Shown: positions 14,065 to 20,877 of the stretch, piece by piece
Layout: each line of letters starts with the position of its first letter
Position numbering within the stretch: position 1 is the stretch's first letter
Origin: an uncultured Clostridia bacterium
GTDB lineage: Bacteria > Bacillota > Clostridia > Christensenellales > CAG-314
Direction: 5' to 3'
Assembly (NCBI GenBank): GCA_947630425.1
Contig: CANRHN010000017.1
Location: 1-33,491, forward strand
DNA length: 33,491 nucleotides
Notes under the pieces: model-generated
Seen by the model: only the letters and a program-made list of their open reading frames with translations
Databases searched by the model: none
Told to the model about the DNA's origin: nothing
Made by a program: the position numbers and the translations under genes

Positions 14065-14392
14065 ATATCAATTCGTCGATTTTTTGTCCGTATTCCATTG
14101 TCGTATCCAAAACAAATTTGAATTCCGGTACTTTTCGAATGTACATTGCACGAGACACTTCACGGCGTACGGCAGGTTCGTTTTCTTTGATTGCCTCAAA
14201 CGTAGCCGCCGCTTTTTTTGCATCCGTCGAATAAATACTGACGTAAACCTTGGCTGCGGTCAATTCCCTGTCGCAATCCACGTCCAACACCGTAAACATT
14301 TCCGTTATACGTGGATCTTTGATTTTTTTTGTTAAAATTTCGGCAATAAGACGCTTAAACTCCGAATTAAGTTTGCTTGTTCTGGTGTTCAT
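14033..14392 (-). CDS. rbfA: Ribosome-binding factor A
   Basis: [15 protein letters not shown]...VYVSIY...[34 protein letters not shown]. Confidence 0.94.
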
Positions 14393-16920
14393 TGCTCGAT
14401 CTCTTCCATCTGATAAACTTCGAATACGTCGCCGACCTTGATGTCATTGTAGTTTTCCACGGAAATACCGCATTCGTAGCCGGATGCAACCTCTTTGACG
14501 TCATCCTTGAAACGCTTTAGCGCAAGAATGTTGCCTTCGTAAATACTTACATCGTTACGGTAAATACGCACTTTGCCGCTGCGCGCTACTTTTCCGTTTG
14601 TCACATAGCAACCTGCAACAGAGCCGACGCCTGTAATTTTGAATACCTCTCTGACCTCTGCGCTTCCCAGCACCGTTTCGCGGAATTTGGGAGCAAGCAG
14701 GCCTTTCATTGCCGCAGTAACGTCGTCCACCGCGTCGTAAATCACATTGTACAAGCGAATGTCAACGCCTTCTTTTTCCGCCAACGTTTTGGCATTGTTG
14801 TCGGCGCGCACGTTAAATCCGATAATGATTGCTTCCGACGCTTTTGCAAGCATGACGTCCGTTTCCGTGATTGCGCCCACGCCGCCGTGAATTGCGCTGA
14901 CTTTTACTTCGTCATTCGAAATCTTTTCAAGGCTGCCCTTCAATGCTTCGAGACTTCCCTGAACGTCTGTCTTGATGATAAGATTGAGCGTCTTAAGCTG
15001 ACCTTCGGAAATACGACCGAACAAATCGCCCAAATTGATGGAAGGCGTTTGACGGGCATTTTCCAACTTGACTTTGTTTTTGCGTTCCTCTGCCGCTTTC
15101 TTTACAAGCTTTTCGTCGGCGACATACATATAATCGCCCGCTTGCGGCACTTCGGAAAAGCCCAACACCTCGACAGGCATGGACGGACCCGCGCTTTTGA
15201 TTTTTCTTCCCTTGTCGTCAAACATGGCGCGAATTTTTCCCGTTGCATAGCCCGCAATCAAACTGTCGCCGACATGCAACGTGCCGTTGCTGATAAGTAT
15301 TGTTGCGACAGGACCTCTTCCCTTGTCCAGCTTTGCCTCAATTATCGTTCCCGTGGCTCGCTTTTCGGGATTAGCTTTCAATTCCTTTATTTCCGTCACA
15401 AGCAGAACGCTTTCAAGCAGCTTGTCAAGTCCCATACCTGATTTTGCGGAAACGGGGACCATAATGGTGTCGCCGCCCCACTCTTCGGGAACGAGTTCAT
15501 ATTCGGACAACTGTTGCTTTACCCTGTCGGGGTCCACGTGCGGCTTGTCCATCTTGTTGATTGCGACAACGATAGAAACTCCCGCCGCTTTGGCGTGGTT
15601 TATCGCCTCAATCGTTTGCGGCATAACTCCGTCGTCCGCCGCCACGACGATTATCGCAACGTCGGTGATTTTTGCTCCGCGCGCACGCATAGCGGTAAAC
15701 GCCGCGTGTCCGGGGGTGTCTATAAACGTAATCTTTTCGCCGTTGACTTCCACGGTGTACGCGCCTATGTGTTGCGTGATACCGCCCGCTTCGCCGCTTG
15801 TTACGTTTGTGTTTCTTATAGCGTCGAGCAACGACGTCTTTCCGTGGTCTACGTGTCCCATAACGGTGACAATGGGCGGACGTTTGGTGTTGTTTTCCAA
15901 GCCGTCATCCGTCTCGGCGTCAATGATGATTTCCTCGGCGGTAAGCTCTTGCTTAAGCTCCAACGTTACGCCATGCTCGCCTGCAATATATTCGGCATAG
16001 TCAAAATCGACCGTATCGTTGATTGTTTTCATTATGCCTTCTTTGAACAACTGTTTTATAATCTCCGACGCGGAAACGCCAATACGTTCGCTCAAAAGCT
16101 TGATGGGCACTTCTTTGTCGTTGACGACGGCATGCGTAATTTTGGGAGCAACAGAAACGTTGGAGGATTCGCTCTTTTTTGTGCGGTTTTTGCGGACAAC
16201 TCTATCCTCGTCGTAGTCTGCCGTGTAGTCGCGCGTAAGAAGTTTTTTAAGGTTGTTTTGACGTTTTTCGTCGGGATGTTCCTTTGTTTTGTTTTTGTTG
16301 CCGTGCGACTTTTGCGCGTCAACGCGCGGCACTTCCACAACGGGGGTAAATTTCTTTCCTGCCGAAGCGCCGTTTCGGGTACTGCGGTTTGCAGAACCTT
16401 GTTCGTCCTTGACGGCGGGGCGAGAACCTGTTTGCGCTTTGCCGGATGCGCGCTGTTCGCGTTTGGCGTTGCCGGCAGAGCCGCCTTGGGAAGTTGAGGA
16501 GATATCGATAAATTTTCTTATCTTTACATTACCCTTTTCGTCGGTGTAACGCTTGATTTCTCTTCCGTTTTCTATGATAGTATCTACCTTGGTCTGCGGT
16601 TTTTCCACCTTGGGAGCTTCAACCTCGGGTGCGGCAGGAGCTTCTTCCGTTGCAACAACCACTTCCGCCGTTTGCTCGGTTTCGACAGCGACGGTCGGCT
16701 CTTCTTGCGCTTGTTCTTTTTCCGCGTTTGCAAGTGCCTCCATCTCTATCTGTCTGAACTCTATCTTGCGTTGCTGTATTGCTTCGGATATCGCATTTGC
16801 ACGCAACTTGACAGACGCCAATGTTTGTTGTAGAGCACGAGCAACATTCAAAACGCTCGTTTTGACCGTTTTGATGTTTTCATAGCTTCTTTGTTTTTGT
16901 GTATTGGTTGTATTTGCCAT
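14389..16920 (-). CDS. infB: Translation initiation factor IF-2
   Basis: [38 protein letters not shown]; start set to [10 protein letters not shown]. Confidence 0.97.
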
Positions 16921-17222
16921 TATTTTTCCTCCCGAGGCATATACATCAAATTTTCCGTTATTGCGCCGGCTAACGATTTGTCGCAGATAGCCAACGCTTT
17001 GCAATTTTTACTTTGCAAAAATTGATAAGTTTCGATTTGCAAAAGGGGACATTGTACGCGTTCGCTTACGCTACGCAACACGCTTTGAGAGTTGGGCGAC
17101 AAGTCCTCGGTGAAAAGAATCAAGTAGATCCTTTTTCTGCAACTTTTGATTTGGTCGCAGCCGAATACCGCCGAACCCTTTTTTATTGCAAACCCTATAT
17201 AAGTTTGAATTTTACTGTTCAA
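16920..17222 (-). CDS. L7Ae/L30e/S12e-family protein (YlxQ-like)
   Basis: 100 aa; [20 protein letters not shown]...; between ylxR and infB as in Firmicutes. Confidence 0.85.
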
Positions 17223-17472
17223 GTAATTTCTCCAATTGTTGCTCCACCGTCTCCAAAGAAAAGCCGTGCTGTTTTACAAACCCCTTGCTTTTGAGAGCTT
17301 TGTGAATACACTCGGCGCACCTACACAAATATACTCCCCTGCCGTTGAGCTTTCCGCTCAAATCCACTACTACGCCGTCAGCGGAATTTACTATTCGCAC
17401 AAGTTGATTTTTTGGCTTCATTTGGCGGCACGCAACGCACATTCTTTCCGGTTGTTTTTTGAGTGATGACAC
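17212..17472 (-). CDS. YlxR family RNase P modulator / nucleic-acid-binding protein
   Basis: PERMCVACRQMKPKNQLVRIV...GRGVYLCRCAECIHKAL; GTG start with GGAGAG upstream, overlapping the end of nusA. Confidence 0.9.
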   Translation of the reverse strand: MSSLKKQPERMCVACRQMKPKNQLVRIVNSADGVVVDLSGKLNGRGVYLCRCAECIHKALKSKGFVKQHGFSLETVEQQLEKLLEQ

Positions 17473-17473
17473 A

Positions 17474-18565
17474 CTACTCTCCTTCGCCCTCGCCTTCTGC
17501 GTTGTCGAACATGCCGCTTGCAAGTGCCGCCGAGTAAGATTTGACGTCGATCTTCCAACCCGTAAGACGTGCCGCAAGACGCGCATTTTGTCCTTCTTTG
17601 CCTATGGCAAGGGAAAGTTTTTCATCAGGGACAACAACTTTTGCTTCTTTGGAATCCTCATCTGCCTGCACAATCAGGACTTTTGCGGGAGAAAGCGCTC
17701 TGGCGATGTAGTCGAGAATGTCGTTGCTCCAAGGAATTATGTCGATTTTTTCTCCGCCCACTTCCGAAACAATTGCGTTTACGCGTATGCCTTTGTTGCC
17801 GACGCAAGAACCGACGGCGTCTATTTCGGGGTCGGTGGAATAGACCGCTATTTTTGTGCGGAAGCCCGCTTCACGCACGATGCTCTTTATTTGAACTATG
17901 CCCGCGCGAATTTCGGGAACTTCGTTTTCAAACAAACGCTTGATGAACATATAGCTTGCTCGGGACAGCATAACCTGTGTTCCGCCTATGCCGTCGCGGA
18001 CGCGCTTGACCAAAACTTTGATACGATCTCCCGCGTGGAATTTTTCACCGGGGATTTGGTCCTGCACCGAGAGAACGCCTTCCATTTGATTTTTGCCTAT
18101 TTCGACATAGATCGTACCGTCGTCCTTAACTCTGGAAACAATTCCGATAAGCAGCTCGTTTTCTTTGTCGGAATATTGATTGTAGGTGACGTCCTTCTCC
18201 GCCTGATGCAAACTGTTCTTTATAACCTGAACGGCATTTTGCGTGGCAATTCGGCTGAAATCGCGGGGATTTATTTCCGTCAAAACTTCGTCTCCGACCT
18301 TGTAGCTCTTTTTGATGAGCTGCGCGTCCTCCAACGAAATTTCCTTTTCGGGAGTTTCCACCGTTTCCACAACTGTTTTGCTCGTGTAAATGCGTATGGT
18401 GTTCTTTTCGGGATTGATTTTTACCACGGTGTTGAACGCTTCGCCGTAATGTTTTTTGCAGGCGATCGTCAAAGCAGTTTCCAAGGATTCGATAACTTTT
18501 TCCTTGCTGATACCCTTCGTTTCTTCCAGCTCGTCCAGAGCAAGGAAAAATTCTTTGCTGATCAT
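17474..18565 (-). CDS. nusA: Transcription termination/antitermination protein NusA
   Basis: 363 aa with S1 and KH domains ([51 protein letters not shown]). Confidence 0.96.
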
Positions 18566-18576
18566 GCTTGTTCCTC

Positions 18577-19032
18577 CTAAAATTCGATTATCGGCTCAAC
18601 TAACGCCGTATCTTTTTTGTTAAATGTTATTTGTTCGCCCTTTACCTCAACGGTAAGGCTTTGTTCGTCGTAACTTACAAGCACGCCTTGGAAAACTTTT
18701 TTGCCGTTTTGCGGCTTGTAGAGTTTGACAGAAATTTTCTTGTTGATGTTTCGACGGTAATCGCGCTCCGTTTTTAGAGGACGATCTATACCCGGTGACG
18801 AAACGTTGAGAATGTACGACTCGTCGATGGGGTCGAGTTCGTCAAGCGGCGCGTCTATCGCTCGATGCAGCTTTTCGCAATCATCGATTGTAACGCCATC
18901 CTCCTTGTCAATCACAATGGTGAGGTTCATTCCGCTGTACTTTTTTTCGTACAACACCTCGACAACCTCCAACCCGAAGCTTTCCGCAATGGGCAAAACC
19001 AACTTGTAAACCTCGTCTGCGACCTTTCCCAT
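18577..19032 (-). CDS. rimP: Ribosome maturation factor RimP
   Basis: GLEVVEVLYEKKYSGMNLTIVIDKEDGVTIDDCEKLHRAID, YILNVSSPGIDRPLKTERDYRR; start after AAAGGGGGAGTT. Confidence 0.95.
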   Translation of the reverse strand: MGKVADEVYKLVLPIAESFGLEVVEVLYEKKYSGMNLTIVIDKEDGVTIDDCEKLHRAIDAPLDELDPIDESYILNVSSPGIDRPLKTERDYRRNINKKISVKLYKPQNGKKVFQGVLVSYDEQSLTVEVKGEQITFNKKDTALVEPIIEF

Positions 19033-19053
19033 AACTCCCCCTTTACAGTAAGT

Positions 19054-19080
19054 TGAGAGTGGAGACAATCTCCACTCTCA
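19054..19080 (-). other. Perfect 12-bp inverted repeat (RNA hairpin) in the rimP leader
   Basis: TGAGAGTGGAGA (19054-19065), CAA loop, TCTCCACTCTCA (19069-19080). No U-tract on either side. Confidence 0.9.
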
Positions 19081-19186
19081 CCAAGTAAACGAATATTTGG
19101 CGAAATGTGACTGTACGTTTGAAATTTGAGGCTTCTCTCTGAATTTACGCACAGTACGTAACAAATTTACTCAATTTGTCGGTTAA

Positions 19187-19215
19187 ATTATACCATATCA
19201 AAACAAGTTTGACAA
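19187..19215 (-). promoter_or_regulatory. SigA promoter for the rimP-nusA-infB operon
   Basis: Minus strand TTGTCA (19210-19215) - 17 nt - TATAAT (19187-19192), extended TGG. Confidence 0.82.
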
Positions 19216-19239: not shown

Positions 19240-20877
19240 TTACTTGGAATTAGCCGCCAAAAAGCTCATGCAACGTGCGGCGGCAAGCGCAGTGTCGTAG
19301 CAGAAAACCGAATCGGGACAGCTGACTTTGCACTTTTTTACCACGTCCTCAAGCTTGGTAGAGCCGCTGTTTTCCATCCTGCTGTGAGCAAAAAGCTCTC
19401 CAAAAACGTCGGTTTGCGAAACGACGTTGTTGGTAAATTTGTAATTCATCGGAGCGGCATAGTAGTCCAATAGCTGCACTATCTGCGACAAATTGTTACC
19501 GACAAGCTCGCAATCGTAACAAAACTTGTACAAATCGGAAATAATTTCCGTCAAGGTCGGGTAAAAGATAAGCTTTGACGCAGCAATTTTGCAATGCTCC
19601 AATGCGCGCTCGTCATTGATTTCCTTCTCGGGATTTACATAGCTGAAAAAGCGTTCCGTGACGTGTCCGTGCACCACTTTGACGGCGCAAAGGGCATAAA
19701 TTTTGTCCTCGACGACATTGCCCAAGCCTGTGGAATTTACGTGCAACACAACATAATTTTTGTCGCTTATAACAGACTGTTCCGAATAGTGTTCGACAAA
19801 GTTCATCTGCCTGTACTCGGTACAATCTTCGGGCTTGACAAGCAAATACTCATCGGCGACCTCACGAGTAAATTCGCGTTCGGGCGAAATGGGACTGATT
19901 TGGCAAGAACACAAATCGTATACGTGCATTTCCAGCTGACCGTTTTGCCCCACGACCGTTTTGCCGCGCACGACAACCGACATTCCGTCGGCAAGACGGG
20001 TAAGCGTTTTTAGCCGTTTGTCGTTGGAAAGAATGCGTTTTTCAGACAAAGTACGCGCTTCCGCTTCGCCCCGTCCCGTTTCGTCCACTATCGTGTTCAC
20101 ATCCGTTATTTGCATACGCAAAAAGAGTATACAGGGCAATGATGCGCCCGTGTCGTCCGTCAAAGTGAACGAGCAAACATAAAGCAACGGATTTTTCTTG
20201 GATTGACGACAGTTTCTCCCCGAAACAACGCCGCACACAGTGCAGCTTTCGACAGGCTTTCGCAAGTCGGCAATGTACATTGGGTCAACCGTCAATTCCT
20301 TTCCGAAAATAACATGTTGACCTGTAACGTGAAAATATCTCGACGGCTTGAGCAATTCCTTGTTTATCGCAAGCCGAACAAGCGTTTCCTGTTCCAAAAC
20401 GGCGTCGGAGCTGTCCGCGTCATCGTTTTTCAACGTAAATGACACATTGTAGCTTGTGTACTCCGCGTAGTGGTCCGTAAGCGTCGAACAAAAATCCGTT
20501 TGTTCCATGTTGCTTTTCGTAACGTCGTTTACTTTGAGTGTAACGTCTATATTTTTACCCGTCAATTTTACGTCGATCTTGCTCCGACCGATATTGGCGT
20601 AAACAGGGTAACGCTCCCTTATCAACTCGGACACGTTGCGCAAAAAGGAATTTACCGTAAAGACGTCTTCGGCAAATTTTACATTGCAAATGTAGCCCGT
20701 CGGCATTTGTCCGCGAACAAACTCGGTAATGCGCGACTTTGCCGCATTGTCAAAGACGACCGAAGGCGGGTAAGACAACGTGCAAAACACCTTGCGTTGC
20801 TGTTTGTCAACGCGTATTTCCCGCATACGCAATTCGGTAAATGATGGAAAAACTTCGTGTAACTGATCAATTAGCAT
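19240..20877 (-). CDS. PolC-like N-terminal/OB + degenerate exonuclease protein lacking PHP and polymerase domains
   Basis: 545 aa intact ORF between ispG and rimP (the polC locus). Exonuclease-like segment YVVLHVNSTGLGNVVEDKIYALCAVKV resembles YVVFDxETTG... but with the D and E lost. Confidence 0.7.
   Translation of the reverse strand: MLIDQLHEVFPSFTELRMREIRVDKQQRKVFCTLSYPPSVVFDNAAKSRITEFVRGQMPTGYICNVKFAEDVFTVNSFLRNVSELIRERYPVYANIGRSKIDVKLTGKNIDVTLKVNDVTKSNMEQTDFCSTLTDHYAEYTSYNVSFTLKNDDADSSDAVLEQETLVRLAINKELLKPSRYFHVTGQHVIFGKELTVDPMYIADLRKPVESCTVCGVVSGRNCRQSKKNPLLYVCSFTLTDDTGASLPCILFLRMQITDVNTIVDETGRGEAEARTLSEKRILSNDKRLKTLTRLADGMSVVVRGKTVVGQNGQLEMHVYDLCSCQISPISPEREFTREVADEYLLVKPEDCTEYRQMNFVEHYSEQSVISDKNYVVLHVNSTGLGNVVEDKIYALCAVKVVHGHVTERFFSYVNPEKEINDERALEHCKIAASKLIFYPTLTEIISDLYKFCYDCELVGNNLSQIVQLLDYYAAPMNYKFTNNVVSQTDVFGELFAHSRMENSGSTKLEDVVKKCKVSCPDSVFCYDTALAAARCMSFLAANSK

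Follow-up and report, generated by a model that had tools for sequence, protein, structure and literature searches.

Why does a transcript of about 150 nt precede the start codon of rimP in an uncultured Clostridia bacterium, and which of the structures folded into it are read by something in the cell? The initial annotation of this locus, within a 33,491-nt stretch of DNA (here called the window), proposed that the leader is a cis-regulatory RNA and raised NusA as a possible autoregulator. We examined the leader in the window and in relatives ranging from the same genus to the phylum.

Layout and folding of the rimP leader

All genes of the operon lie on the minus strand in the order rimP-nusA-rnpM-ylxQ-infB, an arrangement that joins transcription, ribosome assembly, and translation initiation. 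rimP occupies 18577-19032, with its ATG at 19032 (PF02576 and PF17384), and is followed by nusA, the second gene and candidate autoregulator (17474-18565; TIGR01953, 389 bits), and then by rnpM (ylxR), a ylxQ-like gene with a weak match, and infB (14389-17586). The promoter that had been placed at 19187-19215 on the same strand was borne out: TTGTCA-17-TATAAT, with an extended -10 element (TG), agrees with the consensus at 11 of 12 positions, and congeners carry a promoter of the same shape. Transcription starts, in the window as in its relatives, were assigned from such promoter matches.

Each of the three structures described earlier was recovered in place on the minus strand. A 5'-terminal hairpin, ACAAATT/AATTTGT, spans 19160-19180 (arms 19161-19167 and 19173-19179). 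A long stem occupies 19107-19157, pairing 19110-19118 with 19147-19155 around inner stems AAATT/AATTT and GAG/CTC; its single G-U pair (ACTGTGCGT/ACGTACAGT) would be A-C if taken from the plus strand. Closest to the gene is a perfect 12-bp hairpin, UGAGAGUGGAGA-UUG-UCUCCACUCUCA, at 19054-19080 (arms 19054-19065 and 19069-19080, 3-nt loop), leaving 21 nt between its end and the rimP ATG. The spacer ACUUACUGUAA and the Shine-Dalgarno sequence AGGGGGAG (19035-19053) occupy the position where a U-tract would lie. The whole leader is present as a single copy in the 1.44-Mb genome.

The 151-nt leader (19030-19180, minus strand) folds with a minimum free energy of -48.4 kcal/mol, compared to -30.2 +/- 3.6 kcal/mol for shuffled sequences (z = -5.06; 0 of 200 shuffles as low), and this fold includes the long stem and both inner stems. 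When the parts were folded separately, the 12-bp hairpin (-19 kcal/mol) had a z of -5.3, and the long stem and 5'-terminal hairpin each had a z of -3.8.

Elsewhere in the window, the ORF directly upstream of rimP (19240-20877, minus strand) encodes a shortened PolC-like protein (545 aa) that has an exonuclease domain and matches an OB fold weakly, but lacks a polymerase domain. It may be catalytically dead, since LHVNSTGLGN replaces the D.E-containing first exonuclease motif; in genus g3, a C-terminus at the same position has an intact HRAVDDS-type motif. An OLE RNA (RF01071, 202 bits) at 1-318 on the minus strand, cut by the window end, adjoins a polyprenyl synthase-like ORF at 410-1219.

Conservation from genus to phylum

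Of 25 congeneric genomes, 24 contain rimP, with the hairpin directly upstream in every case; the one without a rimP match is 79% complete. Also invariant in these 24 are a UCGCC box (19099-19103) and a GGUGA (19078-19082) with which it can pair, in competition with the base of the 12-bp hairpin. The stretch between promoter and UCGCC has diverged in sequence, yet its fold is more stable than those of shuffles in all but one of the 24 congeners (mean z of -3.4 over the 24), and in the lone exception (L023) the -10 box had been wrongly picked by our script. The 5'-terminal hairpin is present in most congeners, with arms that change on both sides. Given the conserved hairpin, the folding scores, and these two-sided changes, all three structures are supported within the genus.

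A covariance model of the hairpin core (R1) gave one strong match per genome, before rimP, and, at E <= 0.1, a match in 9 of the 11 genera of the family; the 12-bp hairpin precedes rimP in most of this family. One R1 match (genome G035) fell on a contig other than that of rimP and is probably false, and the rimP of this genome, at a contig edge, still has the hairpin directly upstream (L093). Genome G031 also retains this type of hairpin, at a distance of over 200 nt upstream. Across the family alignment, two-sided changes are seen in 8 of 11 pairs and 98.7% of cells are paired, values reached by none of 500 shuffles. Other genera of the family have a short leader consisting of promoter, about 25-30 nt, hairpin, and Shine-Dalgarno sequence, from which the 5'-terminal hairpin and the long stem are absent, as is UCGCC...GGUGA. 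The comparison thus indicates that the parts of the leader are of unequal age, with a widespread 12-bp hairpin and with two upstream hairpins and UCGCC...GGUGA that are genus-only. The long stem and the 5'-terminal hairpin, to which the initial annotation gave weight, are supported within the genus as additions specific to it.

Across the order, a second model (R2) found matches in 62 of 396 genomes. Of 30 new matches inspected, 26 lie directly before rimP (families f15, f24, f28, f29, and f32), and the remaining four are weak. Related hairpins, strongly covarying, are present in six of the order's families; here again, 0 of 500 shuffles reach the observed values. In the order, the hairpin reads UGAGAGUGG...CCGCUCUCAA; a U.G pair is frequent, the loop varies, and AAGAGUG/CACUCUU swaps occur.

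At the class level, (A)AGAGUGGG-loop-CCCACUCUU was found by pattern in 29 of 30 rimP loci, and the thirtieth (L164, genome G485) has a match to a third model (R3) just upstream of rimP. Among the matches listed, at least 89 of 117 genomes have an R3 match just before rimP, a count obtained by comparing two tables by eye. All 30 loci sampled from the phylum have the general form AGAGUGGG-loop-CCCACUCU ahead of rimP, and 28 of them carry the exact arm GAGUGGG; the pattern used for class and phylum, composed after the first leaders had been seen, occurred in 1 of 1500 shuffled upstream regions and in 0 of 179 other 400-nt stretches. In the alignment from window to class, 96% of cells are paired and both sides have changed in 8 of 10 pairs (0 of 500 shuffles), and intermediates link GAGAGUGGAG (genus), GAGAGUGGG (order), and AGAGUGGG (class and phylum) within it. 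Many of the relatives' assemblies are fragmented, and E-values from our home-made models are rough.

Alignment of the regions upstream of rimP, the check that the initial annotation had suggested, thus found the 12-bp hairpin conserved and covarying. Its conservation, accompanied by compensatory changes, extends over genera, families, and classes, so a lack of conservation or covariation does not describe this leader, and the proposal of a cis-regulatory function gains support for its gene-proximal hairpin.

We also looked for pairing of the hairpin's 5' flank with the Shine-Dalgarno sequence (UUUAC/GUAAR), as an outer helix or a pseudoknot. When flanks were swapped between genomes, in full, genus, family, and order sets and at about 30 length settings, own flanks paired no better than swapped ones (a single setting gave 68/2000), although hand-picked examples had looked convincing. 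An upstream leader peptide was rejected as well, since hairpin lengths of 22-28 nt are not limited to multiples of three.

Loss of the U-tract and candidate readers of the stem

Terminator properties were assessed with the classical score d, using the d'Aubenton Carafa formula. The window hairpin scores d = -36, with 4 U in its 11-nt spacer. Among the 24 congeners d was above zero in 1, and among 12 other family members in none. In the wider sets it was above zero in 2 of 26 loci from the order, 1 of 34 drawn mostly from the class, and 6 of 30 from the phylum. The mean U-tract score declines from 2.39 in the class set to 1.17 in the family. Class-wide 3' flanks are interrupted U-tracts; those of the window family hold too few U to form one. 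The window hairpin is homologous to that of the known rimP-leader but, by these scores, does not have its terminator form.

Of 34 class loci, 11 (among them L162, L165, L168, L170, and L172) carry TTNTTT, the NusG-dependent pause motif, no more than 18 nt past the hairpin, compared to 5.4 expected; the motif was found in the 3' flank in 5 of 25 cases from other families of the order and 2 of 37 from the window family. A NusG pause motif after the hairpin in the class is suggestive only.

The same stem sequence stands before 30 of 30 Bacillota loci, only about a fifth of which score as terminators. Judged from its covariation, this sequence (in general AGAGUGGG/CCCACUCU, here UGAGAGUGGAG/CUCCACUCUCA) is under selection as RNA, between promoter and rimP. 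Its conservation far beyond the needs of termination suggests that something reads the stem itself. Because the stem has outlived the U-tract, probably either the stem as such is recognized or polymerase pauses there instead of terminating. The near loss of the U-tract, together with a hairpin end 21 nt before the ATG, makes a non-terminating pause or control at the level of translation possible.

The reading that we prefer, in which we place about even confidence, is that NusA autoregulates the operon by way of a pause, or of weak termination, at the hairpin. RNA polymerase would transcribe the hairpin, NusA would favor its formation, and the polymerase would then pause or terminate within the next ~10 nt, such that high NusA would reduce transcription of rimP-nusA-rnpM-ylxQ-infB. 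With the U-tract decayed in the window family, the output would probably be a weak terminator or a pause, and a pause would time release of the RNA against ribosome loading. The two genus-level 5' hairpins would perhaps contribute to 5'-end stability. Counting against attenuation by NusA, the window-family hairpin fails as a terminator by d and has a mean U-tract score of 1.17, and the stem is kept well past the needs of termination. NusA KH domains bind single-stranded RNA, and no anti-terminator was seen in the leader.

The main alternative, possible but doubtful, is control of translation, in which a product of the operon (RimP, RnpM, YlxQ, or IF2) or else a ribosomal protein would attach to the stem next to the Shine-Dalgarno sequence and block or help ribosome loading. 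Such control would account for the conserved sequence of both stem arms and for the position of the hairpin in the window family and in most order matches, where its end is near the start codon and no U-tract is left. Elsewhere in class and phylum, however, the hairpin lies 20-300 nt upstream of rimP, too far for a simple block of the Shine-Dalgarno sequence, and no supported helix reaches that sequence. We also think it rather unlikely that the rimP hairpin is, phylum-wide, a sequence-specific protein landing site and not a terminator, brought beside the Shine-Dalgarno sequence in the window clade; if so, a transcriptional control would there have turned into a translational one.

A constitutive element for mRNA stability or processing, in which the hairpins would shield the 5' end or serve as an RNase site with no feedback, is improbable. 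The great stability of the 12-bp hairpin and the genus-specific hairpin at the presumed transcript start would suit such an element, but a generic stabilizer need neither keep one stem sequence throughout a phylum nor be confined to rimP. Many Firmicutes 16S rRNAs carry GGAGAGUGGAAUUCC at helix 22 (h22), a resemblance that raised mimicry of h22 for binding of ribosomal protein S15. This very unlikely reading was rejected: the clade's own h22 is GGAAAGCGG or GGUAAGCGG, the leader is without the G.U/G-C motif, and no copy of the motif was found in the scanned 16S genes. The motif scan covers 16S, since the regions taken from downstream of these genes contained none of the 23S marker sequences. 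Least credible is a DNA operator for a repressor dimer; despite a perfect palindrome just downstream of the promoter, the alignment disfavors it, as the variable loop with its changing half-site spacing (hairpins of 22-28 nt) and the common G-U pairs point to recognition of RNA rather than DNA.

The window clade is informative: retention of the stem after loss of the U-tract separates stem recognition from termination and so offers a natural test of what reads the stem.

Relation to known rimP leaders

The rimP family in Rfam, a gammaproteobacterial leader, shares its name and gene context with the window leader, but there is no match at the gathering score, and the weak matches in the window leader do not include this family. 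More broadly, neither the window hairpin nor any of 40 loci from class and phylum reaches the gathering score of an Rfam 15 model. The hairpin (L194-L223 and L161-L190) appears near-universal in the phylum, yet lacks an Rfam 15 match.

A closer counterpart is the rimP-leader described from Firmicutes and Gammaproteobacteria, a putative terminator in which a G-rich/C-rich hairpin is followed by a T-stretch (PMC2965389). Naville and Gautheret (2010) reported it to be without an anti-terminator and proposed NusA as the likeliest ligand (PMC2965389). The window hairpin stands before the same gene, in the 5' UTR of a confirmed rimP, nusA, and infB operon as the rimP-leader requires, and is likewise short, with a G-rich 5' arm and a C-rich 3' arm. 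It differs in having the stem GAGAGUGGAG in place of GGGc(...)gCCC, in having essentially no U-tract (no T-stretch follows the hairpin in the window), in abutting the Shine-Dalgarno sequence, and in the two extra hairpins at the 5' side.

Autoregulation by NusA, as raised in the initial annotation, is plausible and has a precedent that may extend to the window RNA by analogy: according to Mondal 2016, as summarized in PMC12288461, B. subtilis nusA, in the ylxS operon, is autoregulated through NusA-stimulated intrinsic termination. NusA-dependent terminators have suboptimal, interrupted U-tracts (PMC8060035). The B. subtilis attenuator, which we compared by its description, shares with the window a place in the leader of the same operon. 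The class-wide relatives carry the interrupted U-tracts expected of NusA-dependent terminators, whereas the window version scores as a non-terminator. From the match to the published rimP-leader and the B. subtilis precedent, the 12-bp hairpin is best classed as a variant of this known element, an identity absent from the initial annotation, and thus as a lineage form of the Bacillota rimP-leader.
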